Of a stretch of 64,000 nt of DNA, positions 12,266-41,751 are shown one piece after another. The notes below the pieces were generated by a model. That model was not told the DNA's origin. It ran no database searches and was given only the letters and a program-made list of their open reading frames with translations. The stretch comes from Haloarcula halophila (GTDB taxonomy: Archaea > Halobacteriota > Halobacteria > Halobacteriales > Haloarculaceae). The translations under genes and the position numbers were made by a program. The first letter of the stretch is position 1. Every line of letters begins with the position of its first letter. The DNA is taken from assembly GCF_029278565.1 (NCBI RefSeq), contig NZ_CP119560.1, positions 434,001 through 498,000 on the forward strand. The letters run 5' to 3'.

Positions 12266-12709
12266 GTGACCAGTTACACTATCAACCCCCCGGAGCTCAA
12301 AGACGCCCGGGACATCGGCTACAACCACGCGCGTATCGACGGCGAGACCTTCTACATGGCCGGGCAAGTCGCCATGGACGCCGACTCGACGGTCGTTGGG
12401 GACGACATCGAGACGCAGGCCCGGAAGGCCTACGAGAACGTCGGGATTCTGCTCGACGCTATCGACAAGGGCTTCGGCGACATCTCGAAGGTGACGACAC
12501 ACATCGTCGATCCGGCCGAACACTACTACGACGGCTACAAGGAGGTCTACTGGGAGACCTTCGACGAGCCGTACCCGTGTCACACCGTGCTCGGCCACGA
12601 CCAACTGGCCAACGAGGAGTACCTCGTCGAGATCGAGGTCGAGGTCCCCCTCTCGCCGGCCGACATCGAGGCCATCGAGCCCGACGGCGAGACGGTACGC
12701 AAACTCTAA
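12266..12709 (+). CDS. Rid (YjgF/YER057c/UK114) family protein
   Basis: A 147-residue Rid-fold protein, starting at GTG; the nearby ATG is out of frame. The core is recognisable: FYMAGQVAMDADSTVVGDDI, ARKAYENVGILLDAI and a C-terminal LVEIEVEVPLS. The arginine that defines true RidA imine deaminases (in the P-x-R-x2-V stretch) is replaced here: the matching segment reads YPCHTVLGH. It is therefore probably a different Rid subfamily, possibly acting on a ureido, thioureido or enamine intermediate. It lies 89 bp downstream of the M20 hydrolase and is convergent with the D-aminoacylase gene, sharing stop-codon bases at 12706-12709. Confidence 0.85.
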   Translation: MTSYTINPPELKDARDIGYNHARIDGETFYMAGQVAMDADSTVVGDDIETQARKAYENVGILLDAIDKGFGDISKVTTHIVDPAEHYYDGYKEVYWETFDEPYPCHTVLGHDQLANEEYLVEIEVEVPLSPADIEAIEPDGETVRKL

Positions 12710-14307
12710 CGCGATGCCCGGAGCGCCCGGCCCGGGGTCGCGCCGGTCGTCTCGCCGTCCCTGACGACGAACTCGCCGTCGACGAGCACGTGATAGATGC
12801 CCTTAGGATGTTGTCTGGGGTTGTCGTACGTCGCCGGTGAGGAGACGATATCCGGGTCGAATACGACGAGGTCCGCGTCCATCCCGGGGCGAACGATGCC
12901 TTTCGTGTCTAGCCCCATCGACCGCGCGGGCAGGGAGGTCATCTTCCGGACGGCCTCCTCCAGCGACAGGAGATCCGCCTCGCGGACGTATTTGCCCAGC
13001 ACGCGCGGGAACGCCCCGTAGACCCGTGGGTGAGGGTTTCCGCCGAAGAGCCCGTCGGTGATGACGTTGACCCGCTCGGAGCTGAGGATGTCGCGCACGT
13101 CATCCTCGTCGATGAAGTGGTTGATGACACTGACGCCAAGTTCCTCCTCGGCCAGTAGATCACAGACGGCGTAGACCGGCTCGGTATCCCACCGGTGGGC
13201 CAGGGCCGCGACGGACTCGCCCTCGACGTCGCTGTTTGCATCGCTCTCGACGGAGGCGATAACGACGTTCTCCCAGCCGGAGTAGGCGCCGGGGTTGTCC
13301 CAGCCCTCGATGCGGTCCTGTTCGATGTCGGCTCTGATGCGCTCGCGGGCCTGCTCGTCACGGAGGTATTCGACCGTTTTCTCGGGTCCCTCGGCGTGGA
13401 CCCACGGCGGCAGAACGTACGACAGCAGTGTGTTGCTCGCCGTGTAGGGGTACTGATCGGCCGAAAAGTCGACGCCCCGCTCGCGGGCCGTCTCGACGAG
13501 CGCCAGTGCCCGGTCGGACTTGCCGTGCTGGAGCGGGCCGCCCAGTTTGAAGTGCGAGAGATGGACCGGCACGCCGGCCGCCGCGCCGATGTTGACGAAC
13601 TCGTCCAAGGCGTTCCAGATGTCCCCCCGCTCGCTGCGGATGTGGGCGACGAACGGACGGCCGTACGGCGACAGTTCCCCGGCCAGCGCGGTCAATTCCT
13701 CGGTCGTGGCGTAGGAACACGGCGTGATGACCAGCGCCGTCGACAGCCCGAACGCCCCCTCGTCCATCGCTTCGGCGACGAGATCCCGCATCTCGGACAG
13801 CTGTTCGTCGGTCGGCTCCGTGTCCTCCATCCCCAACACGTTGAACCGTACCGTCCCGTGGCCGACCAGCGTGCCGACGTTAGGCGCGACACCGCTTTCC
13901 TCGACGGCATCGAGATACGCGCCGACGCCGCCCCAGCTCCACTCGTGGTCGACCCGGCCGGCCAGCCCAGCCAGCTGATCCTGCCACTCCTCGGCACCGC
14001 CCTCCCGGTACATCGGGGCCATCGAGAACCCGTCCTGGCCGAGTATCTCCGTCGTGATCCCCTGCCGGATCTTCGGCGCGAGCGTCGGGTCGGCAAACAA
14101 CTGGAGGTCCGAATGCGAGTGGGTGTCGATGAAGCCTGGCGAAACGACGTTCCCGCCGACGTCGACGACGGTCTCGGCGTCCATCGACTGCTCCGGGACG
14201 CGACTCACGTCGGATATCTCGCCGTCTTCGAGACGGACCGTGCCGCGGAACCACGGGGCACCGGTCCCGTCGACGATGCGCGCGTTCTGCAGAAGCGTCG
14301 TGCTCAT
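12706..14307 (-). CDS. N-acyl-D-amino-acid deacylase family amidohydrolase
   Basis: A 533-residue D-aminoacylase-type member of the amidohydrolase superfamily. The metal motif is GFIDTHSHSDLQLFADP near residue 62, followed by the family marker GITTEILGQDGFSMAPMYR. Later blocks include TALVITPCSYATTEEL, HIRSERGD and a C-terminal strand GMDADLVVFDPD. Relatives hydrolyse N-acyl-D-Glu/Asp or similar amides. The start at 14307 (MSTTLLQNARIVDGTG) gives the classic N-terminus; the frame runs far upstream only as a shadow of the YeiH gene. A TATA-like gtatatatac (14334-14343) lies upstream. Its role beside hydantoin-type enzymes could be opening or desulfuration of a ring intermediate; this is a guess. 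Confidence 0.87.
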   Translation of the reverse strand: MSTTLLQNARIVDGTGAPWFRGTVRLEDGEISDVSRVPEQSMDAETVVDVGGNVVSPGFIDTHSHSDLQLFADPTLAPKIRQGITTEILGQDGFSMAPMYREGGAEEWQDQLAGLAGRVDHEWSWGGVGAYLDAVEESGVAPNVGTLVGHGTVRFNVLGMEDTEPTDEQLSEMRDLVAEAMDEGAFGLSTALVITPCSYATTEELTALAGELSPYGRPFVAHIRSERGDIWNALDEFVNIGAAAGVPVHLSHFKLGGPLQHGKSDRALALVETARERGVDFSADQYPYTASNTLLSYVLPPWVHAEGPEKTVEYLRDEQARERIRADIEQDRIEGWDNPGAYSGWENVVIASVESDANSDVEGESVAALAHRWDTEPVYAVCDLLAEEELGVSVINHFIDEDDVRDILSSERVNVITDGLFGGNPHPRVYGAFPRVLGKYVREADLLSLEEAVRKMTSLPARSMGLDTKGIVRPGMDADLVVFDPDIVSSPATYDNPRQHPKGIYHVLVDGEFVVRDGETTGATPGRALRASR

Positions 14308-14366: not shown

Positions 14367-15371
14367 TTACGCCGAAAAGACCAGTCCAAGCACGGACAGC
14401 GTCACCACGCTGGCGACGAGCAGCGCCGCCGACACGATTACCACGGGCTCGATACCTGTCGCCCGGAGTTCTCCGATATCGATCTCCAGTCCCAGGCCGG
14501 CGAAGGCGAGCAGGAACAGCCAGCGATAGGCGTTCGTTAGCTCCTGTGTCGCCCTCGGGGAGACGAACGACGTCGAGGTGAGTACGATGAGCGCTACGAA
14601 GCCGAGGACGAACGTCGGCAGCGAGTCCCAGAGCGTCCGTACCGAGAAGTCCTCGGCCGTGTCGGCGTAAACGAGCGAGTAGCCACCGACGAGGAGCCCC
14701 AACAGGAGGTTCCGTGTGACCTTCGTGACCGTCGCCCACTCTCCAGCAGTCTCCGAGACGGTAAATCCCGCCGCCGTGACCGGGCCGGTGCTGAACATGG
14801 TGATGCCCGCCCAGATACCGAACACGCGGTCGGTGAGTCCGAGCGACGCCCCGACTACGGGGTACGCAAACAGCGTCACGACATCGAAAAGCAGGACGGT
14901 CCCGGCGGCGTAGGCGACGTGTCTCTCGTCGGCTCGGATACTTCCGGCGACCGCGACGACGGCCGAGACCCCACAGATACCCGCCCCGGCGGCCAGTAAC
15001 GAACCGAGCTTCCCCTTGATGCCGAAGACGGTGCGGCTCAACGTCTCTACGACCAGTATCGTCACGAGGACACCCGACAACGTGACGGCCAGCAGTTCGA
15101 GCCCGACGCCCAGCACCGTTCCGATCGAGATTCGCGCACCCATGAGAACGATGCCCGCTTCGAGCCAGAGTTTGTGTGTGTCGGCTCCGGGTTCGACCCA
15201 TCGGGGTATCGAGAGGGCGTTACCCACGACCAGTCCCAGCGTGACGGCGAGGATGAGCGGTGTCGCGTAAGGGAGGACGGAGCCGAGCCCGCGGGCGACC
15301 AGCGCGATGCCAGCGAGCACGAGCAGCCACGGAGCGTACCGCTCCGTGGTCTCAAGCAGTGTGGCCCTCAT
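14367..15371 (-). CDS. YeiH-family putative sulfate/sulfite exporter
   Basis: A 334-residue integral membrane protein of the YeiH (conserved hypothetical 698) family, with about ten hydrophobic helices. Family blocks seen are LEAGIVLMGARISIGTVLGV, the loop GAGICGVSAVVAVAGSIRAD and GFVALIVLTSTSFVSP, plus a C-terminal FAGLGLEIDIGELRATG. Relatives are annotated as sulfate or sulfonate exporters on limited evidence. I prefer the ATG at 15371 because an upstream GTG at 15422 would lie inside the small gene 15400-15540. Within this island it could remove sulfite or sulfate made from a sulfur-containing substrate. Confidence 0.85.
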   Translation of the reverse strand: MRATLLETTERYAPWLLVLAGIALVARGLGSVLPYATPLILAVTLGLVVGNALSIPRWVEPGADTHKLWLEAGIVLMGARISIGTVLGVGLELLAVTLSGVLVTILVVETLSRTVFGIKGKLGSLLAAGAGICGVSAVVAVAGSIRADERHVAYAAGTVLLFDVVTLFAYPVVGASLGLTDRVFGIWAGITMFSTGPVTAAGFTVSETAGEWATVTKVTRNLLLGLLVGGYSLVYADTAEDFSVRTLWDSLPTFVLGFVALIVLTSTSFVSPRATQELTNAYRWLFLLAFAGLGLEIDIGELRATGIEPVVIVSAALLVASVVTLSVLGLVFSA

Positions 15372-15399
15372 CTGTGCGCCGGTTGGTTGTCCCCCGACC

Positions 15400-15540
15400 T
15401 CACCACGGGATAGGGAGTCCACCGATCACGAGGCCAGTGACCAGCGCCGCGACGACTATCGCCCGCCAACCGCGGTCGAGGGCGGCCACGCGTCCCGCGG
15501 CCGTCACCAGCAGTCGAGTCACGCGGTCGGCGGTCGCCAT
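15400..15540 (-). CDS. 46-residue single-pass membrane protein
   Basis: A short frame that fits exactly between its neighbours: its ATG at 15540 follows the dehydrogenase stop after 3 bp, and its TGA at 15400 precedes the exporter ATG by 28 bp. It encodes a basic N-terminal half (MATADRVTRLLVTAAGRVAA), a Trp-Arg junction and one hydrophobic helix (AIVVAALVTGLVIGGLPIPW) ending in Trp. Tight operonic spacing is the main support. It may be an accessory subunit of the YeiH-type exporter. I know no named family. Confidence 0.6.
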   Translation of the reverse strand: MATADRVTRLLVTAAGRVAALDRGWRAIVVAALVTGLVIGGLPIPW

Positions 15541-15543
15541 CGT

Positions 15544-16542
15544 TCAGACCTCCCGGGTGAACGTCGGTATCAGGTCCGTCATGCTCCGCAGGCCCGGGTC
15601 GGCGGCGATGACCGTCGGGGCGACGTTTGCGACGACCGCGGAGGTGCTCACGTCCCCGTGGTAGCCACCGTCAACCGTGACGGAGACGGGCGGTTTGCTC
15701 TCGAAGTGGACCTCGTCGCGTGGCTCGTCGGCACCGACGTACATCTGCAGGTCGAGCGTGATGCGCTCCTCGCCGTCCGCGTAGCCGCGTGCGACCTGCC
15801 GGATGCCGGCCACCTCGCCGGCTTCGACAGTGAGATACTCCGTCTCGACGCGATCCTCCGCGATGACCGGTTCGATGGTCTCCTCGATGTCGTCGATGTC
15901 GAAGGAGAGCGCGTCGCCGAGCATGGCGACGGATTCCGTGCTCCCGACGTGGCCCGCCTCGGTGGCGATATCGCGTTCGAAGGTCTCGACAGTGACGCCA
16001 GCCCCGACCTTCCGCTGTAGCGGCTCCCGGCGACTTGCGGCATCCTGTACCCGTTCGACGGTGACGCGGTCGACGCTGGCCATCGGCGTCGAGAGGAACG
16101 CCGGCATCGTGTCCATCACGAACCCGGGATTGATACCGGTCCCCAGTACCGTCACGCCGCTGTCAGTCGCTGCCTCGTCCAGTTCGACGGCGGCATCCGG
16201 CGCGGCCCACTGCGGGTACGCCAGCTCCTCGGTCGTCGAGACGATGTTTGCGCCCGACTCGACGATCTCCAGTAACTGCGGGAGCGCGGTTTCGACGTCC
16301 GAAACCGTCGAATGGAAGACAACGTCGGGATCCGCGGCCAGCGCCGCCGCCGCGTCGTCGGTCACCTCGACGCCGACGGACTCGCCGAACCCGGCGACCT
16401 CCCCGAGGTCGGCGCCGACCTTCTCGGGGTCGATGTCGACGGCCCCGACGAACTCGAACCCGGTCCGGTGGGCGGCGTTCGCGATGCGGCTTCCTATCGG
16501 CCCGATACCGTACTGAACAGCGGTTGGTGTCTCGTCTGTCAT
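15544..16542 (-). CDS. DapB-like / 2,4-diaminopentanoate-dehydrogenase-like oxidoreductase
   Basis: A 332-residue protein with an N-terminal Rossmann motif (VQYGIGPIGSRIA near residue 9) and the layout of 2,4-diaminopentanoate dehydrogenase and related dihydrodipicolinate-reductase-like proteins: STVSD near residue 78, then VLGTGINPGFVMDTMPAFLS near 130, which forms the substrate side. It probably uses NAD(P) to reduce or oxidise a C-N bond. It lies in the operon between the hydantoinase (91 bp upstream) and the 46-residue membrane protein. Here it could act on an imidazolone or thiohydantoin propionate intermediate; the true substrate is unknown. Confidence 0.8.
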   Translation of the reverse strand: MTDETPTAVQYGIGPIGSRIANAAHRTGFEFVGAVDIDPEKVGADLGEVAGFGESVGVEVTDDAAAALAADPDVVFHSTVSDVETALPQLLEIVESGANIVSTTEELAYPQWAAPDAAVELDEAATDSGVTVLGTGINPGFVMDTMPAFLSTPMASVDRVTVERVQDAASRREPLQRKVGAGVTVETFERDIATEAGHVGSTESVAMLGDALSFDIDDIEETIEPVIAEDRVETEYLTVEAGEVAGIRQVARGYADGEERITLDLQMYVGADEPRDEVHFESKPPVSVTVDGGYHGDVSTSAVVANVAPTVIAADPGLRSMTDLIPTFTREV

Positions 16543-16633: not shown

Positions 16634-18025
16634 TCACCCGTCCCGCTCGTCGCCGGCGGCTATCGGCCGGTCGATGTGCGTGCCGTGGCCTGGCGGGGCG
16701 GTCACCTCCCCGTTCTCGTAGGCGATTCGCCCCCGGACGAGCGTCTGGGTCGGCCAGCCGGTTACCTCCCGCCCGGTGTACATCGTGTAGTCCGCGCTGC
16801 TTTGCAACAGCTCCGGGGTCACCGTCTTCGTCTCCTCGATGTCGGCGACGACGATGTCGGCGTCGGTCCCCGGGCGGAGCGATCCCTTCTTCGGGTAGAG
16901 ATCGTACGCCTTCGCGGCGTTGGTGCTCGTCACGGCTGCGACGCGCCGGAGCCCGAGGCGGTCCTCGTGGAACCCCTCCGAGAGGACGAGCGGGAACATC
17001 GTCGCTGTCGACGGGGAGCCCCACATCGACTCCCAGATGTCCTCGCCGATCTTGTTCGCCCGCTTGTTGGCGATGTGGTCCGTCCCGACGATGGAGAGGG
17101 TCCCCCCGGCCAGATGCTCCCAGAGGGCATCTTGGTCGGCTTGCGACCGGATCGGCGGGTTGATCTTCATCCGGTCGTCACACTCCTCGCTCGTCAGACA
17201 GAGATAGTGCGTACAGGTCTCGCCGGTCACCCCGTAGCCCATCGACTGCAGGCGGGCCAGTTCCTCGGCCGTCTCCTTCGCGCTGACGTGGACGGCGTAG
17301 AAGTCGTCGTCGTAGCCGTGCTGTCGGGTGTGTGACGCGCCGGCGACGAGGCTCTGTGCCTCCGCGTATCCGGGGAACCGCTCGACGATGGCGTCGTACC
17401 CGTCCCGGCCGGCGTCCTGTAGCTGCTCGGTCAGGTGGGCCGTTATCTCGGCGTTCTCGGCGTGGTACGCGAGCGTCGTCGGTTCGTCGATCTCCGCCAG
17501 TTCCGAGATGAAGTGGTCGGCCACGTCGTCGAGCAGGTTCTGCTCCACGCCGAACCGCTCCGCGGCCTGCAGTTTGTAGTTCATGTACCACTTGAACGAC
17601 GTGATACCGAACTCGTCGATGACCGCGTCTATCTCAGTCGCGTGATCGTGCGAGAGGAGCCCCAGCGTGAAGAAGTAGTCGTGGCGGTAGTTCGGCTCCG
17701 CTTTCGCGAAAAAGTCGTCCATGATGTCCGGGTAGGACTTCCCCCGTCGGAAGATGTTCCCGGTCGTCGTGACGCCCCCCACCAGCCCCGAACGTGACTC
17801 CGTGTCAGCGTCGTCGGCCAGCGGCCGGAAGAGCCCGAAGTGGGTGTGCGGGTCGATGACGCCCGGGAAGACGTGCCGACCGGTGGCGTCGATGACCCGG
17901 TCCCCGTCGATGTCGCCCGCCGTCGAGACGGTAGTTATCAGCTCCCCGCCGATGCCGATGTCGGCGTCGAAGACGCCCTGTTCGGGGCTGACGACCGTGC
18001 CGCCTTTGATGGCAACGTCGTGCAT
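16634..18025 (-). CDS. Hydantoinase / dihydropyrimidinase family amidohydrolase
   Basis: A 463-residue cyclic-amide hydrolase. All expected metal-site elements are present: GVIDPHTHFG (HxH), the lysine that is carbamylated in this family in SFKWYMNYK, AYHAENAEI, FYAVHVSAKETAEEL, GETCTHYLC and the Asp in IVGTDHIANK. The start at 18025 gives the normal start MHDVAIKGGTVVSPE and lies 2 bp after the urocanase-like stop, so the genes are coupled. Hydantoinases open 5-substituted hydantoins to N-carbamoyl-amino acids. Beside a urocanase paralogue, hydantoin-5-propionate to N-carbamoylglutamate is the obvious candidate reaction; an M20 hydrolase for the next step lies at 10920. Confidence 0.9.
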   Translation of the reverse strand: MHDVAIKGGTVVSPEQGVFDADIGIGGELITTVSTAGDIDGDRVIDATGRHVFPGVIDPHTHFGLFRPLADDADTESRSGLVGGVTTTGNIFRRGKSYPDIMDDFFAKAEPNYRHDYFFTLGLLSHDHATEIDAVIDEFGITSFKWYMNYKLQAAERFGVEQNLLDDVADHFISELAEIDEPTTLAYHAENAEITAHLTEQLQDAGRDGYDAIVERFPGYAEAQSLVAGASHTRQHGYDDDFYAVHVSAKETAEELARLQSMGYGVTGETCTHYLCLTSEECDDRMKINPPIRSQADQDALWEHLAGGTLSIVGTDHIANKRANKIGEDIWESMWGSPSTATMFPLVLSEGFHEDRLGLRRVAAVTSTNAAKAYDLYPKKGSLRPGTDADIVVADIEETKTVTPELLQSSADYTMYTGREVTGWPTQTLVRGRIAYENGEVTAPPGHGTHIDRPIAAGDERDG

Positions 18026-18027
18026 CG

Positions 18028-19737
18028 TCACTCCCCCACTTGGTCCCCCATCGGGATCTCGATACCGGACTGGTCGGCCTCCCGCAGTGCCTTCTCGTAG
18101 CCGGCATCGGCGTGGCGCATGACCCCGCTCGCGGGGTCGACGTCGAAGACGCGGCGGGCCTTCTCCTCGGCCAGTTCCGAGCCGTCGAGGACGACGTGGT
18201 TGTTCGTCGAGGTCACTTCGCCGACGGCCCCGGCGCTCGAATGGAGGCTGACGATGTCGGCGCCGGCGGCGCAGTTCAGGAGTGCGTTGAGGATGGGCCA
18301 GTCGGCGACGGCGTCGGTCCCGTCTTTCATGTCTTCGGTAGCCTCGTTGGGGTTCGCGATACTCCCGCCGTCGAGTTGGTCGCGCGTGACCACTATCGGC
18401 GCTGCTATCTCGCCCTCGGCGACGAGTTCGTTCACTCGGAGCGCGAACCGGGCGCGCTCGCTCAGTCCGTCCTCGCCGGCCTGGTAGCCGAGCCAGCAGA
18501 CCCGCGCGGGCAGTCCCTGGAAGTCGACGTGTTCCTGTGCGAGGTCGATCCAGCGCAACAGCGAGTCGTTCTCGGGGAACAGTTCCTCGATAAGCGCGTC
18601 CGTGCGGTCGATGTCCTCGGGGTCCCCCGAGAGGGCGACCCACCGGAAGGGGCCACGGCCCTCACAGAACAGTGGTCGGACGTACTCCGGTGCGAACCCC
18701 GGGAGGTCGTGGGCCTCGGTCATGCCGCGCCGGTCCGCGACCTGTCCTCGGATACCGTTCCCGTAGGTGAACGTGACCGCACCCCGTTCGTACATGTCCA
18801 GCAGCGCTCGCACGTGCCGTTCCATGGTGTCGAGGCTCTCCTCGCGGTAGCGGTCGGGGTCCCGCTCACGGAGGTCGTCGGCTTCGTCGATCGTATAGCC
18901 GACCGGATAGTACCCCGTCAGTTCGTCGTGGGCGGCGGTCATGTCCGTGATAACGTCGGGGACGAACTCCCGGTCGAGCATCCCTTCCAGCAGCGAGACG
19001 ACGTTGGCCGGCACCGCGATACTGCAGGCCTCGCCCGCCTCCATCGCCGCCCGTGCCCGCTCCAGTGCGTCCTCGACCGAAGCGGCCGACTCCTGACAGT
19101 ACCCCTCGTCGATGCGGCGCTGGATGCGCTCGTCGCTCACTTCGGCGACGAGACAGACGCCGCCGTTCATCGTGACCGCGAGCGGTTGGTTCCCCCCCAT
19201 CCCGCCCAGGCCGGCGGTCACCACGAGACGGTTGGTCAGGTCCCCGTCGAACTCCTGCTCGGCGACCGCGGCCAGCGTCTCGTAAGTGCCCTGTAACACG
19301 CCCTGGGAGCCGATATACCCCCACGACCCGGCGGTATAGTTCCCCATCATCATCTTCCCGTCCGCCTTGAGCCGCCGGAACTCCTCCCAGTTGTCCCACT
19401 TGCTCACGAGGTTCGTGTTGGCGATGAGCACTCGCGGGGCTCGCTCGTGTGTCCGGAGCCGGCCCACAGGCTTGCCAGACTGGACGACCAGCGTCTCGTC
19501 GCTCTCCAGTTCCCGGAGGGTCTCGACTATCGTGTCGTAGGCGTCCCACGAGCGAGCCGCCTGTCCGACACCGCCGTAGACGACGAGGTTTTCGGGGTCT
19601 TCGGCGACTTCGGGGTCGAGGTTGTTGTTGAGCATACGGAGGGCGGCCTCCTGTCGCCACCCCTCACACTCGATCTCCGTCCCCGTCCGCGCGCCTCGGT
19701 ACTCGCGCCACACGTCGCTGGGTGTCTCGCTCGCCAT
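18028..19737 (-). CDS. Divergent urocanase paralogue (possible thiourocanate hydratase)
   Basis: A 569-residue urocanase-family protein (usual length about 555-580). The family frame is intact: GSQGVLQGTYET, TAGLGGMGGNQPLA, the active-site Cys in GLPARVCWLGY (Cys414), and [19 protein letters not shown]. However, the glycine-rich catalytic/NAD loop, HHGGGVGMGFSQH in classical enzymes and retained as [13 protein letters not shown] in the second copy at 27105, is here HSSAGAVGEVTSTNN (about residues 499-513). FEYGNNIRG of the second copy is FTYGNGIRG. These changes point to another substrate. It heads the minus-strand operon and diverges from the ammonia-lyase homologue. An urocanase-type hydration of thiourocanate is my inference. 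Confidence 0.85.
   Translation of the reverse strand: MASETPSDVWREYRGARTGTEIECEGWRQEAALRMLNNNLDPEVAEDPENLVVYGGVGQAARSWDAYDTIVETLRELESDETLVVQSGKPVGRLRTHERAPRVLIANTNLVSKWDNWEEFRRLKADGKMMMGNYTAGSWGYIGSQGVLQGTYETLAAVAEQEFDGDLTNRLVVTAGLGGMGGNQPLAVTMNGGVCLVAEVSDERIQRRIDEGYCQESAASVEDALERARAAMEAGEACSIAVPANVVSLLEGMLDREFVPDVITDMTAAHDELTGYYPVGYTIDEADDLRERDPDRYREESLDTMERHVRALLDMYERGAVTFTYGNGIRGQVADRRGMTEAHDLPGFAPEYVRPLFCEGRGPFRWVALSGDPEDIDRTDALIEELFPENDSLLRWIDLAQEHVDFQGLPARVCWLGYQAGEDGLSERARFALRVNELVAEGEIAAPIVVTRDQLDGGSIANPNEATEDMKDGTDAVADWPILNALLNCAAGADIVSLHSSAGAVGEVTSTNNHVVLDGSELAEEKARRVFDVDPASGVMRHADAGYEKALREADQSGIEIPMGDQVGE
19571..19680. repeat. Near-identical tract shared by the two urocanase genes
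   Basis: These 110 bases, reverse-complemented, match 27183-27292 with a single silent difference (CGT versus CGC), although the two proteins differ greatly elsewhere. This looks like a gene-conversion tract between paralogues about 7.6 kb apart. Confidence 0.7.
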
Positions 19738-19875: not shown

Positions 19876-21357
19876 ATGATACCGATCGACGGCAGTCTCA
19901 CCGTCGACGAGGTGCGGGCCGTGGCCGACGGCGAACCGATGGAACTCACCGACGACGCCCGGGAACGAATGGACCAGAGTCGGGCGGCAGTCGACGACAT
20001 CATCGACGGCGACGATATCTCGGTCTACGGGGTCAACACCGGCTTCGGGGACCTCAAGGACATCTCGGTCGGCCGCGAGGAGATGGAACAACACCAGCAG
20101 AACCTGCTTCGCAGTCACCAGACAGCGACGGGACCGCCCGTGTCGCCGCGGCTGACGCGGGCCATCCTGGCCGTTCGCGCGAACGCGCTCGCCGTCGGCG
20201 TGTCCGGGGTCCGCCCGGAACTCGTCGACCGGCTCTGCACGCTCCTCAACATGGACGTGCTCCCGCTGATCCCCTCGGAGGGGAGCGCCGACAACGCGTG
20301 TGAACTCGCCAACGTCGGCCTCGTGCTGGCCGGCGAGGGCGAGGCGCTCGTCGACGGCGAACGGTGTTCGGGATCGGAGCCACTCGACGCCGCCGGACTG
20401 GACCCGTTCCGCTTCGGACCGAAGGAGAGCATCGCGCTTATCAGCGGCACCGCCGTGACGACGGCCCGGACCGCGGTGGCGATTGCGGACCTCCGGGCGC
20501 TTGTGACAGCGGCCGACATCGCCGGCGCGTGGACGTTCGAACTCGTCGGGACGGAGCCGGGGGCCTTCGACGAGCGGATATTCGACGCCCGGCCCGTGGC
20601 GGGCCACGCCACCACCGCCGCACACGTCCGGGTGCTGACCAGCGCGACACCGTCCTCGGCGGACATGACACAGGACCCGCTCTCGATTCGGTGTCTGCCA
20701 CAGGTCAACGGTGCACTGCGTGAACACCTCGGTATGTCGACTGACACCGTCGAGACCGAACTCGCCAGCGCGACCGACAACCCGCTGATCTTCCCCGACA
20801 AGACCGCGCGATCGTGTGGGACGTTCAACGCCCAGTACGTCGCCGGCGTCGCCGACCTCTTGGCACTGACGACGCGGAAAGTCGGTGCCGGAAGCGAAGC
20901 GCGATCGTCACTGTTGCTAGCTGCCGACGAACACAGCCCCCACCTGGCCGACGAGCCGGGGTTGGAAAGCGGCCTCGCGCGCGCCCAGTACGCCGCGGCG
21001 TCGCTAGTGACCGAAGCGGGGACGCTGGATACGGCCAGCGACCGGTCGTTTATCGCCTCCTCCGGACAGGAGGACATCCACAGTGCCGGCAACGTCGCCA
21101 GCGCGAACCTGCTGGCGACCGTCGACAAGATCGCCCGCGTCGTCGCCGTCGAACTCATTTGCTGTGCCCGTGCGACACGACAGACGGGGACGACGCTGCC
21201 CCCCGGTCTCGCCGCTGCCCGGGAGTTCGTCGAGGACGCGGCCGACGTGCGGAGCGGCGACGTGCCGTGGTCGGCCGACATCTCGTCGCTGGGTGACGCA
21301 GTTCGGGACAGATCGCTCGTGGATGCAGTCAGGCAAAGCGGCGTCGATATCGAGTGA
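19876..21357 (+). CDS. MIO-less histidine ammonia-lyase homologue (ergothionase-like)
   Basis: A 493-residue member of the aromatic amino acid ammonia-lyase superfamily. Conserved landmarks are YGVNTGFG (Tyr51), QNLLRSH, GPKESIALISGTAVT, SIRCLPQVNGA, NPLIF and SGQEDIHSAGN (Glu399). The Ala-Ser-Gly triad that cyclises to the MIO electrophile is absent: where lyases have GASGDLAPLAH, this protein has GSADNACELAN (residues 136-146), and GEGEA follows in register. The catalytic Tyr that precedes SLRC in histidine lyases is Leu269. MIO is needed to expel ammonia, but a quaternary ammonium leaves without it; known ergothionases, which release trimethylamine from ergothioneine, are MIO-less members of this family. 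That activity is inferred here from sequence and context. Confidence 0.85.
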   Translation: MIPIDGSLTVDEVRAVADGEPMELTDDARERMDQSRAAVDDIIDGDDISVYGVNTGFGDLKDISVGREEMEQHQQNLLRSHQTATGPPVSPRLTRAILAVRANALAVGVSGVRPELVDRLCTLLNMDVLPLIPSEGSADNACELANVGLVLAGEGEALVDGERCSGSEPLDAAGLDPFRFGPKESIALISGTAVTTARTAVAIADLRALVTAADIAGAWTFELVGTEPGAFDERIFDARPVAGHATTAAHVRVLTSATPSSADMTQDPLSIRCLPQVNGALREHLGMSTDTVETELASATDNPLIFPDKTARSCGTFNAQYVAGVADLLALTTRKVGAGSEARSSLLLAADEHSPHLADEPGLESGLARAQYAAASLVTEAGTLDTASDRSFIASSGQEDIHSAGNVASANLLATVDKIARVVAVELICCARATRQTGTTLPPGLAAAREFVEDAADVRSGDVPWSADISSLGDAVRDRSLVDAVRQSGVDIE

Positions 21358-21361
21358 GCCG

Positions 21362-22054
21362 TTAGGCCGCCACATTCGTGTCGGCTTCGAGGTCGCCCGA
21401 GATGACCTCCGGCGTGACCGCCTGTTCGATGTATTTGAACAGCTGGTCGAAGGCCAACACGGTCAACGCGCCCGGAATCGCGCCGGCGAGCATGATGTCG
21501 TAGCTAACCGACGTGAGCCCGGCCTGCACCCAGATACCCAGTCCGCCCGAGCCCACGAAGACCCCGATGTAGGCGACGCCGATACACAGCACCGTCGAGG
21601 TCCGAATCCCGGCGAAGATGACGGGCAAGGCGTAGGGCAGTTCGATCTGTCGGAGCCGCTGGAGGTTCGTCATCCCCATACCCCGGCCCGCCCGGACCAT
21701 CGAGTCGTCGACCTGTCGGATGCCGGCCACCGTGTTCTTCAGGATCGGGAAGACGGCGTAGATGACGATGGCCAGAATCGTCGGCCGCTGGCCGAGCCCG
21801 AGAACCGTGAACGTGAGCGCAACGACCCCGAGCGCCGGAATCGTCTGTGCGGTCGCCCCGAGGCTCTCGATCACCCGCGCAGCGCGGGGATCTCGCGTCG
21901 CGAGGATACCCGCCGGCACGGCGATGATAATGGCGATCAACTCGCCGATGCCGACCATCCGGATGTGGCCGGCGAGCAGTTCGAGGAACTGGTTCTGATT
22001 CGCCATGATGTACTCTAACCACCCCGTCGCGAGGCCCTGGAGCGGACTAAACAT
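21362..22054 (-). CDS. Quaternary-amine ABC transporter permease (OpuCB/EgtU type)
   Basis: A 230-residue ABC permease of the osmoprotectant (QAT) family, with five to six helices. The family core is visible: GLGQRPTILAIVIYAVFPIL, then NTVAGIRQVDDSMVRAGRGM and GMTNLQRLRQIELPYALPVI, then FAGIRTSTVLCIGVA. The start at 22054 overlaps the ATPase stop (22047-22049), favouring it over an upstream in-frame codon. It is the last gene of a four-gene importer unit (binding protein, permease, ATPase, permease). Convergent with the ammonia-lyase homologue, whose stop lies 4 bp away. Confidence 0.92.
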   Translation of the reverse strand: MFSPLQGLATGWLEYIMANQNQFLELLAGHIRMVGIGELIAIIIAVPAGILATRDPRAARVIESLGATAQTIPALGVVALTFTVLGLGQRPTILAIVIYAVFPILKNTVAGIRQVDDSMVRAGRGMGMTNLQRLRQIELPYALPVIFAGIRTSTVLCIGVAYIGVFVGSGGLGIWVQAGLTSVSYDIMLAGAIPGALTVLAFDQLFKYIEQAVTPEVISGDLEADTNVAA

Positions 22055-23006
22055 TCGTGACACCCTCGACCGTGGAGTCAGAGGCGACATCTCGGATGTC
22101 TTCTTCGCTGAGCGAGCCGACGACCGTCCCGTCTTCGATGACCGACAGCGGCTCGGTCGCGTGATAGAACGTCTGTAGCGCGGCTTTCAGACTGTCGTCC
22201 GGGTGCAACACGGTCTCCGTCCGGTCGGACAATTCGTGCGAGGTCATGACTTCGCGGACGGAAATCAGCGAGAGCCGCTTGAGGAGGCGGTCTTCGCCGA
22301 CGAAGTCCTCGACGAACTCGTTTTTCGGGTTCGCGAGTAGGTCCCTTGGGGAGTCGTACTGCACCAGCTCCCCCTTGTTGAGCACCGCGACCTTGTCACC
22401 CATCTTCAACGCCTCGTTGATGTCGTGTGTGACGAAGACGATCGTCACGTCGAGCCCGGCCTGAATCTCGACAAACTCGTCCTGTAGCTCCTCGCGCGTG
22501 ATCGGGTCGAGCGCGCCGAACGGCTCGTCCATGAGCATGATGTCGGGCTCGGCCGCCAGCGCGCGTGCGACACCGACGCGCTGTTGCTGACCGCCCGAGA
22601 GGGCCTCGGGATACCGGTCTTTCGCGCCCGCGGGGAGCTGGATCAACTCCAGCAGTTCGTCGATGCGGTCCTGCTTTCGCTGTTCGTCCCATCCCCGCAG
22701 GTCCGGAACGAGACCGATGTTCTCCCCGACGGTCATGTGGTCGAACAGGCCGATCTCCTGGATGACGTACCCGATGTTGCGTCGCAACTCTATCTTGTCG
22801 TGTTCGCTGATCGGCGTCCCGTCGATGATTATCTCCCCGTCGGTCAGCTCTGTGAGCCGGTTTATCATCGTCAACATCGTCGTCTTGCCACACCCGGACG
22901 GGCCGACCAGCGTCGCCGTTTCGCCCTGTTCGACCTCGAAACTCACCTGACTGACCGCCTCGGTACTGTCGCCGTAGACCTTGCGTACGTCGTTGAGTTC
23001 TATCAT
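22047..23006 (-). CDS. Quaternary-amine ABC transporter ATPase with CBS domain
   Basis: A 319-residue ATPase of the OpuCA/ProV type. Walker A is GPSGCGKTT near residue 35, the signature LSGGQQQRVGVARAL, Walker B IMLMDEPFGALDPITREEL, and the H-loop FVTHDINEALKMGDKVA. The last 75 residues form one CBS-type segment (SVREVMTSHELSDRTETVL, later PLSVIEDGTVVGSLSEEDI), a nucleotide or ionic-strength sensor in this family. Its start overlaps the stop of the permease upstream by 4 bp. Relatives import glycine betaine, choline, carnitine or ergothioneine. Confidence 0.93.
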   Translation of the reverse strand: MIELNDVRKVYGDSTEAVSQVSFEVEQGETATLVGPSGCGKTTMLTMINRLTELTDGEIIIDGTPISEHDKIELRRNIGYVIQEIGLFDHMTVGENIGLVPDLRGWDEQRKQDRIDELLELIQLPAGAKDRYPEALSGGQQQRVGVARALAAEPDIMLMDEPFGALDPITREELQDEFVEIQAGLDVTIVFVTHDINEALKMGDKVAVLNKGELVQYDSPRDLLANPKNEFVEDFVGEDRLLKRLSLISVREVMTSHELSDRTETVLHPDDSLKAALQTFYHATEPLSVIEDGTVVGSLSEEDIRDVASDSTVEGVTNV

Positions 23007-23653
23007 GCGTTGAGCCCCCGCTTTCCGCCCGGAATCCGTCGCTGTATCAGTCCCAGTCCGTAGTCAGTGAGAATCGCGAACAGGGAGACGACGAGGGTCG
23101 CCCCGACGATCTGTTTCGGGAGATTGAGCCTGATACCGGCGAAGATCGACGCGCCGAGCCCGCCCGCCCCGAAGAAGGCCGCGATCGTCGTGATACCGAT
23201 AATCAGCACCGCAGCCTGCCGGATTCCCGCGAATATCACCGGGACTGCCATCGGTAGCTTCACGCGAGCTAACAACTGTCGCTCGGTCATTCCGAGCCCC
23301 TCTCCCGCCCGTTCGACCGCGGTGTCGACCTCCTCCAAACCCGTATACGTGTTCCGCGTGATTGGCAACGCCGCGTACAGCACCAGCGCCACTATCGCGG
23401 GTGTCGTTCCGATCCCGACGATAGGGATGAGCAGGGGGAACAACACGAGACTGGGCAGGGTCAGTATCATCCCCGCGACGCCGATGACCGGCGTAGAAAA
23501 CCGGTCGTAGTGGTAGATGGCCACGCCGAGGGGAACCCAAAGGACGGTTCCGATACCGATAGACGTGAACGCGATGTCCATGTGCTCGAGTAACTGCTCT
23601 ACGAGCAGGTCGGTGTTCCCGAGCATCCAATCGACTGTCTCTCGAAGAATCAT
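23003..23653 (-). CDS. Quaternary-amine ABC transporter permease
   Basis: A 216-residue second permease of the same importer. Family segments include PSLVLFPLLIPIVGIGTTPA, then YAALPITRNTYTGLEEVDTA and ERAGEGLGMTERQLLARVKL. It begins 8 bp after the binding-protein stop, and its end overlaps the ATPase start. It is paralogous to the permease at 21362, as in two-permease OpuC systems. Confidence 0.92.
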   Translation of the reverse strand: MILRETVDWMLGNTDLLVEQLLEHMDIAFTSIGIGTVLWVPLGVAIYHYDRFSTPVIGVAGMILTLPSLVLFPLLIPIVGIGTTPAIVALVLYAALPITRNTYTGLEEVDTAVERAGEGLGMTERQLLARVKLPMAVPVIFAGIRQAAVLIIGITTIAAFFGAGGLGASIFAGIRLNLPKQIVGATLVVSLFAILTDYGLGLIQRRIPGGKRGLNA

Positions 23654-23661
23654 TGGACTGT

Positions 23662-24600
23662 CTATAGCAGGTTCTCGGACTCGAGCCAGTCCTGTGCGAC
23701 GTTCTCGGGGCTCTCCTCGTCAATCGAGACCCGAGCGTTCAGTTCGACCATCGTCTCGGTGTCGAGCGCCGAGGCGGGGGCATTCAGCGCCTCGCGGATG
23801 GTGTCATTGAGCACGTCTTGGTCGACGATGGGCGCGGGGTAATAGATGACGAACCAGTTCTGGTCGTCCTCGATGGTCGCGATGTCGAACTCCTGTAAGT
23901 TCGGGTTCGTCGCGAAGCCGACGCCGAGGTCAACCTCGCCCTCCGCGACTGCCCGGTAGTTGATGGTCCCGATCGCCATCCGTTCGTAGGTGACGTTGTC
24001 CATGTTCTCCCTGTACCCGTAGAAGTCGGGCAGATCCCCGAAGGCAGTCGGGTTGTTGATGTACTCCTGTGACACCGCCCACGTCACCTCGCCGCCGTCG
24101 TTGATGTACTCGGCCAACCCCGAGAGGGTCTCGACGCCGGTTTCCTCCTGCCAGTCCGTGTTCGCGGTCACAATGTACGTGTTGTTGAAATCCGCCGTCT
24201 GGAGCCATTCGATGCCATACTCCTCCTGATAGGCTTCGTTGACACTGTTGTACAACTCCTCGGGGTCCCGTATCTTCTCCTCCTCGTTCCCTAGGTGGAA
24301 GTTCCAGCCAGTCCCGGTGTACTCCCAGTAGTGTGTGGTCTCTCCGCTGATTATTGCCTCGTGGTTGGCGGTGTTTCCGCCCACCGGGAACGCGTCGTTG
24401 ATCGACACGCCGGCGTCTTCGAGCATCAACGCGCTCATATTACTGAGAAGCAGTTGCTCGGTGAACTGCTTGCCGCCGATTGTGACCTCTGTACTCCCCC
24501 CGAACGCGCCCTGAATCGAACTCGCACACCCGGCCGTACTGGCCGCGCCGCCGACTGCCGCCACTTTCAGCACTTTTCGCCGTGTGAGACTATCACGCAT
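23662..24600 (-). CDS. Quaternary-amine/osmoprotectant-type substrate-binding lipoprotein
   Basis: A 312-residue OpuAC-family binding protein. The start at 24600 gives a twin-arginine leader (RDSLTRRKVLKVAAVGG) and a lipobox (ASTAGCAS). The mature N-terminus shows the family block VTIGGKQFTEQLLLSNMSAL and then AIISGETTHYWEYTGTGWNF, rich in the aromatic residues that cage quaternary ammonium groups in this family. Relatives bind glycine betaine, choline, carnitine or ergothioneine (EgtU). Which one applies cannot be read directly, but the neighbouring MIO-less lyase favours a histidine betaine. First gene of the importer unit, divergent from an HTH-10 regulator. Confidence 0.92.
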   Translation of the reverse strand: MRDSLTRRKVLKVAAVGGAASTAGCASSIQGAFGGSTEVTIGGKQFTEQLLLSNMSALMLEDAGVSINDAFPVGGNTANHEAIISGETTHYWEYTGTGWNFHLGNEEEKIRDPEELYNSVNEAYQEEYGIEWLQTADFNNTYIVTANTDWQEETGVETLSGLAEYINDGGEVTWAVSQEYINNPTAFGDLPDFYGYRENMDNVTYERMAIGTINYRAVAEGEVDLGVGFATNPNLQEFDIATIEDDQNWFVIYYPAPIVDQDVLNDTIREALNAPASALDTETMVELNARVSIDEESPENVAQDWLESENLL

Positions 24601-24687
24601 GGTGAGTAAAACGACCATACATCGGTGTATATTATGCACCTCCATACGTGTGGCCAATTATATACCCTGACCAATCCAAATCCGCAT
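24601..24687. promoter_or_regulatory. Divergent promoter region, importer / HTH-10 regulator
   Basis: 87 bp with two TATA-like elements: gtatattatgc (about 24627-24637) and attatatacc (about 24657-24666). The spacing allows leaderless or near-leaderless transcripts for both genes. The regulator probably acts here and at related promoters of the island. Confidence 0.5.
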
Positions 24688-25383
24688 ATGCACGAAGCAA
24701 CATTTCACATTCGTGGCGGCGTTCCCTACGAGGAAGCGACAAGAAATCGAGACATCACCATCGAATTGTGGTGTAATAATCATTGTGATTTGCTACATGT
24801 CAAAGGACATGTGACCGACGAGGTCCAAAACGAGATCGCGGAGACGGTCGGCATTGAACATTCGAGTAGCAGTCAACCCGGGATCGAAGAGACCGTCGAG
24901 GGCGACAGCGAGCAGGTCATCATCACGTCTCAGTGTCTCCGTCCACACACCGAGAACAACATCGAGAGCTACCTCGCCGAGCACGACTGTCTCCTGCTCC
25001 CGCCGCTGCGGTACGAACGGGGGGGCAAGGTGGTCCGCGTCATCACGCTCGACCCGGAGAACCTGACGCGGTTCTATCAGGACATCCAGGAGTCGTTCCG
25101 TGTCGAGGTCCATTCGAAACGGAAGATCGACGCCATCTCACAGGACCAGCCGATGCTCTCGGTCGAGTCGCTCGTCCCCGACCTCTCCGAGCGCCAGCAG
25201 GAAGCCATCCTGATGGCGTGGCAAGCCGGCTACTACGAGATTCCCCGGGAGACCACGACCGAAGAACTCGCCGGGCGCATGGACATCGATCGGCGAACGT
25301 TCGAGGAACACCTCCGACTCGCGGAGAACAAGTTCATCGGCGCGCTCGTCAACCGACTCCTCAACACCCGGGGGCCCAACTGA
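24688..25383 (+). CDS. HTH-10 (Bat-type) transcriptional regulator with N-terminal Cys pair
   Basis: A 231-residue regulator starting at the ATG at 24688 (MHEATFHIRGGVPYEE). The C-terminal 60 residues form the HTH-10 domain of bacterio-opsin activators: LSERQQEAILMAWQAGYYEI, then ELAGRMDIDRRTFEEHLRLA. The N-terminal sensing part contains a Cys-x3-Cys motif (LWCNNHCDLLHV) and a further Cys in SQCLRPH, which could bind metal or report thiol/sulfur status. It is transcribed divergently from the quaternary-amine importer and convergently with the rhodanese, so it is the likely local regulator of the island. Confidence 0.9.
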   Translation: MHEATFHIRGGVPYEEATRNRDITIELWCNNHCDLLHVKGHVTDEVQNEIAETVGIEHSSSSQPGIEETVEGDSEQVIITSQCLRPHTENNIESYLAEHDCLLLPPLRYERGGKVVRVITLDPENLTRFYQDIQESFRVEVHSKRKIDAISQDQPMLSVESLVPDLSERQQEAILMAWQAGYYEIPRETTTEELAGRMDIDRRTFEEHLRLAENKFIGALVNRLLNTRGPN

Positions 25384-25392
25384 CGCGGGAGT

Positions 25393-26268
25393 CTACTCCG
25401 CGTCGGCGGTCTCGATGGGTGCGTTCACCAAGTTCCCCCACTCGGTCCACGAGCCGTCGTAGTTCTGGACGGCGTCGAAATCGAGGAGTTCGTGCAACAG
25501 GAACCACTCGATCGACGACCGTTCTCCGAGCCGACAGTAGGTGACCGTCGAGTCCTCCCCGTCGAGCCCGGACTCCGCATACAGTTCCCGCAACTCGTCG
25601 GGACTCTTGTACGTGCCGTCCTCGTTGTGAACCTTCGGCATCGGCACGTTTGTCGCGCCCGGGATGTGACCGGCCTGCTGTGCCGTCGGTTCGAGCCCCT
25701 CCGGCGCGATGACTTCCCCGTCGAACTCCTCGGGCGTCCGGCCGTCGAGCAGGGCCGCGTCGCCCTCAATTGCCGCGTCCACGTCGTCCTTGTAGGCGCG
25801 AATCGACTCGTCGGGTTCGCCCGCGTCGTATTCGAGAGCGGTGAAGGACGGTACGTCGGTCGTCGTCGGATAGTCGTTTGCCAGCCAGTACTGCTTGCCG
25901 CCGTCGAGGGCCCGAACGTCGTCGTGGCCGTAGTAGCTGTACACCCAGTAGGCGAACATCCCGTACCAGTTGGGGACCCGGCCGTTACCGTAGATGACGA
26001 CGGTCGTGTCCTCGGTGATGCCGGCCTCGGCATTGAGGCGGGCAAACCCCTCCCGGTCGACGATAGTCCGGCGTTTCTCGTCGGTGAAATCTCGGTTCCA
26101 GTCGAAGAACGTCGCCCCGGGGATGTGGGCCGTCTCGTAGGATGTGTGTTCTTCGGTCGTGACTTCCGGATTGTTCACCTCGACGAGTCGGTACGCCGGG
26201 TCGTCGCGTTTGAATTCCTCTAGATGGCTCTCGACCCAGTCGGCCGTGACGAGAACGTCCTCGCTCAT
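25393..26268 (-). CDS. Tandem-domain rhodanese (thiosulfate/3-mercaptopyruvate sulfurtransferase)
   Basis: A 291-residue protein with two rhodanese domains. The inactive N-terminal domain contains [16 protein letters not shown]. The C-terminal domain has the persulfide-forming Cys in [11 protein letters not shown] (about residue 245) and the family end [17 protein letters not shown]. It transfers sulfane sulfur to thiols, cyanide or carrier proteins in the cytoplasm. Position next to the putative ergothioneine genes suggests handling of released sulfur, but rhodaneses are common in haloarchaea. AT-rich promoter sequence lies at 26272-26300. Confidence 0.92.
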
Positions 26269-27104: not shown

Positions 27105-28847
27105 ATGAGTCAAGACGGACTCGAGCCGGCGAGTGAGACGCCGAGCGACGAGTGGCTCTCGTATCAGGGTGCCCCGACCGGGACGGAGATCGAGTGTGAG
27201 GGGTGGCGACAGGAGGCCGCCCTCCGCATGCTCAACAACAACCTCGACCCCGAAGTCGCCGAAGACCCCGAAAACCTCGTCGTCTACGGCGGGGCCGGAC
27301 GCGCGGCCCGCTCGTGGGACGCCTACGACGCCATCCTCTCCGAGCTTCGGGACCTCGGTGACGAGGAGACACTGCTCGTCCAGTCTGGCAAGCCTGTCGG
27401 CCGGTTCCCAACACACGAGCGGGCCCCGCGAGTGCTCATCGCGAACTCGAATCTCGTCGGGAACTGGGACAACTGGGACCACTTCCACGAACTCGAAGCC
27501 GACGGGAAGATCATGTACGGGCAGATGACAGCCGGTTCGTGGGCCTACATCGGGACCCAAGGTATCATCCAGGGGACCTACGAGACGCTGGCCGAACTCG
27601 CCAGGCAGGAGTACGACGGCGATCTCCGCGGGAACACCGTCGTCACCTCCGGCCTGGGCGGGATGAGCGGCGCACAGCCGCTCGCGGTGACGATGAACTA
27701 CGGCGTCTGTATCGTCGCCGAAATCGACGAGTCGTGTATCGACCGGCGCATCGAGACCGGCTACTGCATGGAGAAAGTCGAGACGCTCGACGAGGCCATC
27801 GAGCGCGCGACGGAAGCGGCCGAGGCGGGCGAGCCCTACAGCGTCGGCGTCCACATGAACGCCGCCGAGATGCTCGAGGAGATGCTGGAGCGGGATTTCG
27901 TCCCCGACGTCATCACCGACCAGACCAGCGCCCACGACGTGATGGAGGGGTACTACCCGGCGGGATACACGACCGAGGAGGCCGACACCCTCCGCGAACG
28001 GGACCCCGACCGCTACCGCGAGGAGAGCCTCGACACGATGGAGCGACACCTCGACGCTATCCTGACGATGCAGGACCGCGGCGCGGTCGCGTTCGAGTAC
28101 GGTAACAACATCCGCGGACAGGTACAGGAACACCGCGACCGGGACGACGCCTTCGACTTCCCAGGGTTCGTGCCGGCGTACATCCGCCCACAGTTCTGTC
28201 GGGGCCGGGGTCCGTTCCGCTGGGCGGCCCTCTCGGGGGACCCCGAAGACATCCGCCGCACCGACGAGGCGATCCTGGAGTTGTTCCCCGAGAAAGAGCG
28301 TCTCGCACGCTGGATCGACCTCGCCCAAGAGCAAGTGCAGTTCCAGGGGCTACCCAGTCGCGTCTGCTGGCTCGGGTACAACACCGACAGCGAGGGCGAC
28401 GAAGCCGAAGACTCCCTGACCGAGCGTGCCCGCTTTGCCCTCCGCATCAACGAACTGGTCGCCGAGGGGGAGATATCCGCACCCGTCGTCGTCACGCGGG
28501 ACCACCTCGACGCGGGCAGCGTCGCCAGCCCGTTCCGCGAGACCGAGGACATGAAAGACGGGACCGACGCCGTCGCCGACTGGCCCATCCTCAACGCCCT
28601 CCTGAACTGCGCCGCCGGCGCCGACATCGTCAGCGTCCACGACGGCGGCGGCGTCGGTATCGGTAACTCACTGCACGCGAACAACCACGTCGTCCTCGAC
28701 GGCTCGGAACTGGCCGAGGAGAAGGCCCGCCGTGTCTTCACGACCGACCCAGGCATGGGCGTCGTCCGCCACGCCGACGCCGGCTACGAGGAGGCCATCG
28801 ACGAGGCCGAGGAGTCCGACGTGCAGATCCCCATGCGGGACAACTGA
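27105..28847 (+). CDS. hutU: Urocanate hydratase (canonical copy)
   Basis: A 580-residue urocanase converting urocanate to imidazolonepropionate with bound NAD. Family features: [36 protein letters not shown], the catalytic Cys in [11 protein letters not shown] (Cys421) and the glycine-rich loop [13 protein letters not shown] (about 512-524), which matches classical enzymes. The start at 27105 gives [15 protein letters not shown], and the longer open frame upstream is non-coding. It is followed after 52 bp by hutI. No canonical hutH or hutG is present within the window. Its 5' end shares an almost identical DNA tract with the divergent paralogue at 18028. Confidence 0.95.
27183..27292. repeat. 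Partner of the urocanase near-identical tract
   Basis: These 110 bases match the reverse complement of 19571-19680 at 109 positions, the single change being silent. Flanking sequence is also similar but less so. Confidence 0.7.
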
Positions 28848-41671: not shown

Positions 41672-41751
41672 AGATACTACCTGATACTCAACGCCCGTAA
41701 ATTGCTGGTAAGGAGTCACGATAGCGTCCAGACGACGCAGTATCCGAGTGG

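Follow-up and report, generated by a model that had tools for sequence, protein, structure and literature searches.

A MIO-less ammonia-lyase-fold protein of Haloarcula halophila, a predicted trimethylamine-lyase for a histidine betaine

Histidine ammonia-lyase (HutH) builds its MIO electrophile from an Ala-Ser-Gly triad, and a homologue that lacks the triad raises two questions: is it still an enzyme, and if so, what does it act on? Such a homologue is encoded within a 64,000-nucleotide stretch of the Haloarcula halophila genome, referred to here as the window. An earlier note, made from the DNA alone, held that the triad had been replaced while the rest of the fold was conserved, that this was a change of mechanism rather than decay, and that the loss would suit a substrate with a built-in leaving group, such as trimethylammonium; it proposed an alignment of archaeal homologues and a structural overlay on Treponema ergothionase and Pseudomonas HutH as checks. 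Having followed up these points, we think it reasonably probable that the protein is a MIO-independent trimethylamine (TMA)-lyase for a histidine betaine, which in H. halophila would likeliest be ergothioneine or a sulfur-oxidised form of it.

The lost MIO site and the retained frame

The lyase gene and the positions within it that bear on the argument are as follows.

19876..21357 (+), MIO-less ammonia-lyase-fold protein, predicted histidine-betaine trimethylamine-lyase, 493 aa
20281..20313 (+), shortened loop at the MIO site, G136 to N146, with Asp139 at the MIO-Gly position
20680..20682 (+), Leu269, equivalent of HutH Tyr280; Leu in ergothionases too
20980..20982 (+), Arg369, equivalent of HutH Ile383; marker of the Type A pocket (see below)

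The ORF is intact and full length, and its product is the sole PF00221 protein of the H. halophila genome. The Pfam model Lyase_aromatic (PF00221) covers nearly the whole protein at 404.6 bits, which reaches the gathering score, and the NCBIfam hutH model (TIGR01225) gives 383.6 bits, below its curated cut-off of 539.15. After PLIPSEG, where HutH has GSxGASGDL, the translation reads G136-S-A-D-N-A-C-E-L-A-N146, the Ala and Gly that form MIO being absent; in the alignment, the change is a three-residue deletion combined with substitution (GS-LGA-SGD to GS---[ATS][DE][DN]). The loss of Ala-Ser-Gly is real. The flanking landmarks that the earlier note had placed in register (PLIPSEG, GEGEA, Tyr51, Q266-D-P-L269-S-I-R272-C and Q398-E-D400) were all found where it had put them, and the residue before SIRC is indeed Leu269. 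The equivalent of HutH Asn195 is Ser190.

BLAST searches of 391 haloarchaeal genomes with the H. halophila lyase as query recovered the MIO-less form in 11 genomes, representing eight genus codes and four family codes, and the gene was also present on four named plasmids (from Haloarcula sp. GH36, Haladaptatus pallidirubidus, Halomicrococcus gelatinilyticus and Halocatena marina). Clade members scored at least 370 bits versus at most 284 for canonical haloarchaeal HutH; one member, G383 (genomes are given by number where they must be told apart), scored 273 bits by a partial alignment. The same three-residue deletion occurs in all 15 clade members and [AS]SG is kept in each of the 37 HutH sequences of the tree alignment, so the change is due neither to chance nor to sequencing error. 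A more distant archaeal match, G677, turned out to carry GASG and to be canonical HutH, and a further contig scan yielded at least 80 loci, those checked being MIO-bearing HutH. A second PF00221 protein is kept in 8 of the 11 genomes with the MIO-less gene; in G239, G379 and G274 it is canonical HutH.

The active site outside the loop is a mixture of old and new. In P. putida HutH numbering, Tyr53, Gln277, Arg283, Phe329 and Glu414 are retained in all 15 haloarchaeal members compared (H. halophila Y51, R272, F317 and E399 are likewise conserved in 15/15). Tyr280 has become Leu throughout the clade, as in 8/8 ergothionase-type sequences, and Asn195 is replaced by Ser or Asp. His330 is Asn and the acid at 347 is Lys in every member, and the MIO-Gly position is occupied by an acid in all 15 (Asp139 in H. 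halophila). Leu269, Asn318 and Lys335 make up the invariant new residue set of the clade.

The AF2 model of the H. halophila lyase (mean pLDDT 91.4, pTM 0.93) was aligned by VIA-align over its full length with both P. putida HutH (Z 43) and T. denticola ergothionase (Z 42.7), in agreement with the proposal that the fold is conserved from end to end; the input alignment consisted of HutH homologues, so the model bears on the fold rather than on the details of the MIO site. The GH36 copy is 96% identical to the H. halophila lyase with a dN/dS of 0.15, and the dN/dS against G239 is 0.34, values which point to purifying selection on the lyase gene. Taken together, the intact fold, the invariant Tyr, Arg, Phe and Glu and the selection seen against GH36 support a changed mechanism rather than decay.

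Kinship with ergothionase and HutH

Ergothionase is described in PMC13405746 as a TMA-lyase that works without MIO (citing Maurer 2019). According to the same paper (2026), definitive identifications of ergothionase are confined to a few bacteria, and divergent homologues are unaccounted for. The haloarchaeal lyase is like ergothionase (T. denticola 6S7J/6S7Q; Burkholderia sp. HME13) in its HAL fold, in the absence of MIO, in the change of Tyr280 to Leu and (in most members) of Asn195 to Ser, in the retained Tyr, Arg and Glu, in the urocanase-like and hydrolase genes nearby and, as predicted for the haloarchaeal protein, in the elimination of TMA. It is unlike ergothionase in being archaeal, in belonging to a separate clade and in having lost three residues rather than one from the loop, the T. 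denticola version of which (SSIGEGDI) is a single residue shorter than that of HutH. It also lacks Lys383, which is present in 7/8 ergothionase-type sequences by a criterion defined from the present alignment rather than a curated rule, and the place of which is taken by Tyr372 in 15/15 haloarchaeal members. Of the link to ergothionase, therefore, the MIO-less HAL fold stands; the distinct clade, the different deletion and the missing Lys lead us to reject a straight ergothionase label, and we retain a functional analogy.

In a tree of 61 rows from which the MIO columns had been removed, the haloarchaeal MIO-less clade, the ergothionases and haloarchaeal HutH each formed a group at 100/100. 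The MIO-less clade was sister to the ergothionases at 83/82, on long stems, and an AU test did not reject its joining to haloarchaeal HutH (p 0.52), so one and two losses of MIO are both compatible with the data; we dropped a firm claim of independent loss for this reason. By pairwise score, the H. halophila lyase is closer to HutH (235 bits to 7TQR versus 118 to 6S7J), and its best PDB sequence match is the Thermoplasma HutH. It shares the fold, the length and the Tyr51/Arg272/Phe317/Glu399 frame with HutH (P. putida 1B8F, T. acidophilum 7TQR) but differs in the absent triad, the replaced Tyr280 and Asn195 and a score under the hutH curated cut-off.

Gene neighbourhood and the second urocanase

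The lyase gene lies within the following cluster.

10920..12176 (+), M20-family Zn hydrolase, possible N-carbamoyl amino acid hydrolase
12266..12709 (+), RidA family protein
12706..14307 (-), D-aminoacylase-type amidohydrolase
14367..15422 (-), YeiH-type (PF03601) putative sulfate/sulfite exporter
15544..16542 (-), 2,4-diaminopentanoate-dehydrogenase-like (DAPDH-like) oxidoreductase
16634..18025 (-), dihydropyrimidinase/hydantoinase-like amidohydrolase, start by analogy with GH36
18028..19737 (-), second urocanase of HutU descent, active-site positions altered, gene divergent from that of the lyase
21362..22090 (-), betaine-type ABC permease
22047..23006 (-), betaine-type ABC ATPase
23003..23653 (-), betaine-type ABC permease
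23662..24612 (-), OpuAC/ProX-type substrate-binding protein
24625..25383 (+), HTH_10 regulator
25393..26268 (-), rhodanese-type sulfurtransferase
27105..28847 (+), canonical hutU
28903..30120 (+), canonical hutI

The most consistent neighbour is a betaine transporter, which stands next to the lyase in 13 of the 15 loci and comes from two unrelated families. In 11 loci the neighbour is an ABC transporter of the OpuC type, made up of a substrate-binding protein, two permeases and an ATPase. In G217 and G334, which have neither this transporter nor other context genes, a BCCT betaine transporter (460 bits) lies about 130 bases upstream of the lyase. The remaining two loci have MttB-type methyl-transfer genes beside the cluster, the Halomicrococcus locus also encoding a corrinoid protein, a RACo-type activator, MtrH and dimethylglycine-dehydrogenase-like proteins. 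No betaine transporter of either type was found at the 12 canonical HutH loci examined. The adjacency in 13/15 versus 0/12 loci supports a trimethylammonium leaving group, and in this respect the gene context (OpuC 11, BCCT 2, MttB 2) backs what the earlier note had suggested. MttB was considered as a general partner and rejected, as it occurs only in G371 among the 17 genomes searched; that genome holds 11 MttB-family methyltransferase genes on many contigs, and the 16 others hold none. The substrate-binding protein matches ProX, OpuCC and EgtUC, with ProX best among the natural proteins; being no closer to EgtUC than to ProX or OpuCC, it is uninformative as proof of ergothioneine uptake. Similarly, YeiH had been considered as a rare marker of sulfur chemistry, but PF03601 is common in haloarchaea (234/391 genomes), and only its position in the cluster counts.

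Two of the transporter arrangements deserve separate mention. At the BCCT-linked loci of G217 and G334 (L170:7443-10676 and L171), the MIO-less lyase follows the transporter directly, and G334 has no urocanase in its genome, so that it may release the product or take another route. In G239 and G370 (L163 15780-18094; L164 4377-6352), tandem substrate-binding proteins accompany one betaine-type ABC transporter, which possibly reflects two related substrates.

The loci with ABC or MttB-type neighbours fall into two groups. Type A (H. halophila, GH36, G239, G370, G371 and Halomicrococcus; n = 6) carries the second urocanase, the hydantoinase-like amidohydrolase and the D-aminoacylase, with the ABC transporter in 4/6 loci, the DAPDH-like protein in 5/6 (Halomicrococcus being the exception) and YeiH in three (H. 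halophila, G239 and G370). Type B (n = 7 loci, among them those of Haladaptatus pallidirubidus, WP_227779172.1, and Halocatena marina, WP_264556426.1) consists of lyase and transporter without the Type A accessory genes. Each of the five Type B genomes of the search set has a single urocanase, and in G274 and G383 a canonical hut operon adjoins the lyase. The pockets differ accordingly: HutH positions 382-383 are Met-Ile or Met-Met in 7/7 Type B enzymes, and a small residue followed by Arg in 6/6 Type A enzymes (Ala368-Arg369 in H. halophila) and in both BCCT-linked ones.

The second urocanase is about 70% identical to haloarchaeal HutU. The thiourocanate hydratase model NF058530 gives it 622.7 bits, below the cut-off of 930 (canonical haloarchaeal HutU scores 640-646), and the S-methyl-thiourocanate hydratase model gives 680 bits, also below cut-off. 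Sixteen of 206 HutU-invariant columns are changed in all six copies, and 10 of the 16 are changed too in two bacterial thiourocanate hydratases (hypergeometric p = 3e-4, a value that ignores sequence relatedness and uneven column variability). The second urocanase is like thiourocanate hydratase in 10 of the positions that have changed and unlike it in its closeness to HutU, its score and its replacement residues, which mostly differ. Judged from these columns, its substrate is probably something other than plain urocanate.

Among bacteria, the ergothionase-type lyases of Burkholderia arboris and Paracoccus denitrificans adjoin thiourocanate hydratases that score above cut-off, and the P. denitrificans cluster contains homologues of the H. 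halophila M20 hydrolase (35% identity) and hydantoinase. YeiH homologues are found near the MIO-less lyases of Polaromonas, Paracoccus saliphilus and Rhizobium, and the Rhizobium lyase is near an OpuC-type ABC transporter as well. An ergothioneine sulfonate catabolic pathway in Agrobacterium radiobacter (Yan 2022) is cited in PMC13405746; the Rhizobium, Polaromonas and Paracoccus loci, with MIO-less lyases near YeiH, may belong to this pathway. These bacterial clusters encode ornithine-cyclodeaminase-family proteins, whereas the haloarchaeal ones have the DAPDH-like oxidoreductase, the D-aminoacylase and the second urocanase; a search of the bacterial ergothionase clusters found no DAPDH-like or D-aminoacylase homologue.

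Several bacterial MIO-less lyases (loci L048, L049, L175, L176 and L178) are annotated as histidine/aromatic amino acid ammonia-lyase. That of L049 lacks the Lys shared by the other ergothionase-type proteins, and its substrate may be a different one. The B. arboris and P. denitrificans lyases (L047 and L177) have an apparent signal-peptide-like start, and at both loci an MFS transporter gene lies between thiourocanate hydratase and lyase.

Proposed reaction and candidate substrates

We propose that the substrate would be imported by the betaine ABC transporter, that Tyr51 would remove the beta-proton and Arg272 hold the carboxylate, and that the alpha-trimethylammonium would then depart by elimination. 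As a matter of chemical reasoning, a quaternary nitrogen has no lone pair and cannot attack MIO, so the cofactor would be dispensable. The shortened loop may accommodate N(CH3)3+, which Asp139, the acid at the MIO-glycine position, probably faces. TMA elimination is likely, and a histidine betaine is fairly likely to be the substrate; we have moderate confidence that in H. halophila this is ergothioneine or a sulfur-oxidised form, the main rival being hercynine. The lyase product would pass to the adjacent remodelled urocanase, then to the hydantoinase and the N-carbamoyl-type hydrolase to yield glutamate, and the sulfur would exit through the YeiH exporter. We infer the reaction, the substrate and each of the pathway steps, and no desulfurase was identified.

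For Type A, H. halophila included, the predicted substrate is ergothioneine or its sulfur-oxidised form, and for Type B it is hercynine. Arg369 might place a cation near ring carbon C2, where it would suit a thiolate or sulfonate. In the AF2 model, a single helix spans residues 368 to 382, which puts Arg369 and position 372 (the ergothionase Lys) one turn apart on the same face. The Type A enzymes and the BCCT-linked pair form one clade, so the correlation with Arg369 amounts to about one evolutionary event. Against ergothioneine, Tyr372 replaces the ergothionase Lys in every member, and the second urocanase is close to HutU and well under the thiourocanate hydratase cut-off.

Could H. halophila instead have a hercynine (Nalpha-trimethylhistidine) lyase, which would yield TMA and urocanate, the latter being degraded by the HutU and HutI of the cluster? 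Canonical hutU and hutI beside the lyase, in a genome that has no hutH anywhere, fit a urocanate product and a hercynine substrate equally well; in G239 and G370 the two genes likewise lie inside the lyase cluster, position 372 carries the HutH-like Tyr and not the ergothionase Lys, and the Type B relatives have canonical HutU only, twice adjoining the lyase. We nevertheless consider hercynine rather unlikely for this enzyme, since the Type A pocket has changed HutH Met382-Ile383 to a small residue and Arg and co-occurs with a remodelled urocanase and a hydantoinase, both superfluous if the product were urocanate, and since the best HutG match in the H. halophila genome, at 120 bits, falls short of the curated cut-off of 229. 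A different leaving group or betaine (S-methyl-ergothioneine, an N-methylated imidazole betaine or a non-histidine betaine) strikes us as improbable. It would accord with the higher score of the second urocanase for S-methyl-thiourocanate hydratase (680 versus 623 bits, both below cut-off), with replacements that mostly differ from those of thiourocanate hydratase and with a binding protein no nearer to EgtUC than to ProX/OpuCC, but the urocanase-type partner genes point to a histidine-derived product.

That the protein is a catalytically dead HutH paralogue, either decaying or in a regulatory or structural role, seems very improbable: it has lost the cofactor-forming residues and two active-site residues, but the catalytic frame is kept in 15 loci with dN/dS of 0.15 and 0.34, the transporter linkage is conserved, Leu269, Asn318 and Lys335 are invariant, and MIO-less homologues are known to be active (PMC13405746). 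Least credible of all is a histidine ammonia-lyase with some other electrophile. The best PDB match would be in keeping with it, as would the retention of hutU and hutI in a genome whose sole PF00221 protein is this one. Against it, all 15 members lack the Gly for backbone cyclisation and have Tyr280 and Asn195 replaced, and a second PF00221 protein persists in 8/11 genomes that carry the MIO-less gene.

Returning to ergothioneine or its sulfur-oxidised form as the Type A substrate, one broader and decidedly tentative possibility is that haloarchaeal MIO loss was independent of the bacterial ergothionases, that Type B is a hercynine lyase feeding the histidine pathway, and that in Type A a HutH-type lyase and a duplicated HutU jointly re-evolved, in archaea, the catabolism of ergothioneine (or ergothioneine sulfonate). 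MIO-less TMA-lyases have been described before; what is new is an archaeal clade that has a deletion and pocket types of its own. The clade would extend trimethylamine release without MIO to archaea, by another arrangement of the active site, and would offer a natural comparison of the HAL fold with and without a built-in electrophile. Should Type B prove to be a hercynine lyase, we know of no description of that activity in the open literature searched. The split between the types makes the substrate determinants directly testable by exchanging single residues, and gives concrete form to the question of how ergothioneine is turned over in salt environments.

Elsewhere in the window, 36467-41719 (-) encodes an unusually large haloarchaeal sensor-regulator of 1750 aa with several PAS domains along with GAF, BAT and HTH_10 domains, and 49914-51308 (+) is a SelO-family (protein adenylyltransferase) gene on the H. 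halophila replicon. IclR-type regulators resembling one another are encoded near the H. halophila lyase (8749-9552, +) and upstream of the BCCT-lyase pair (L170:6198-7007, -).
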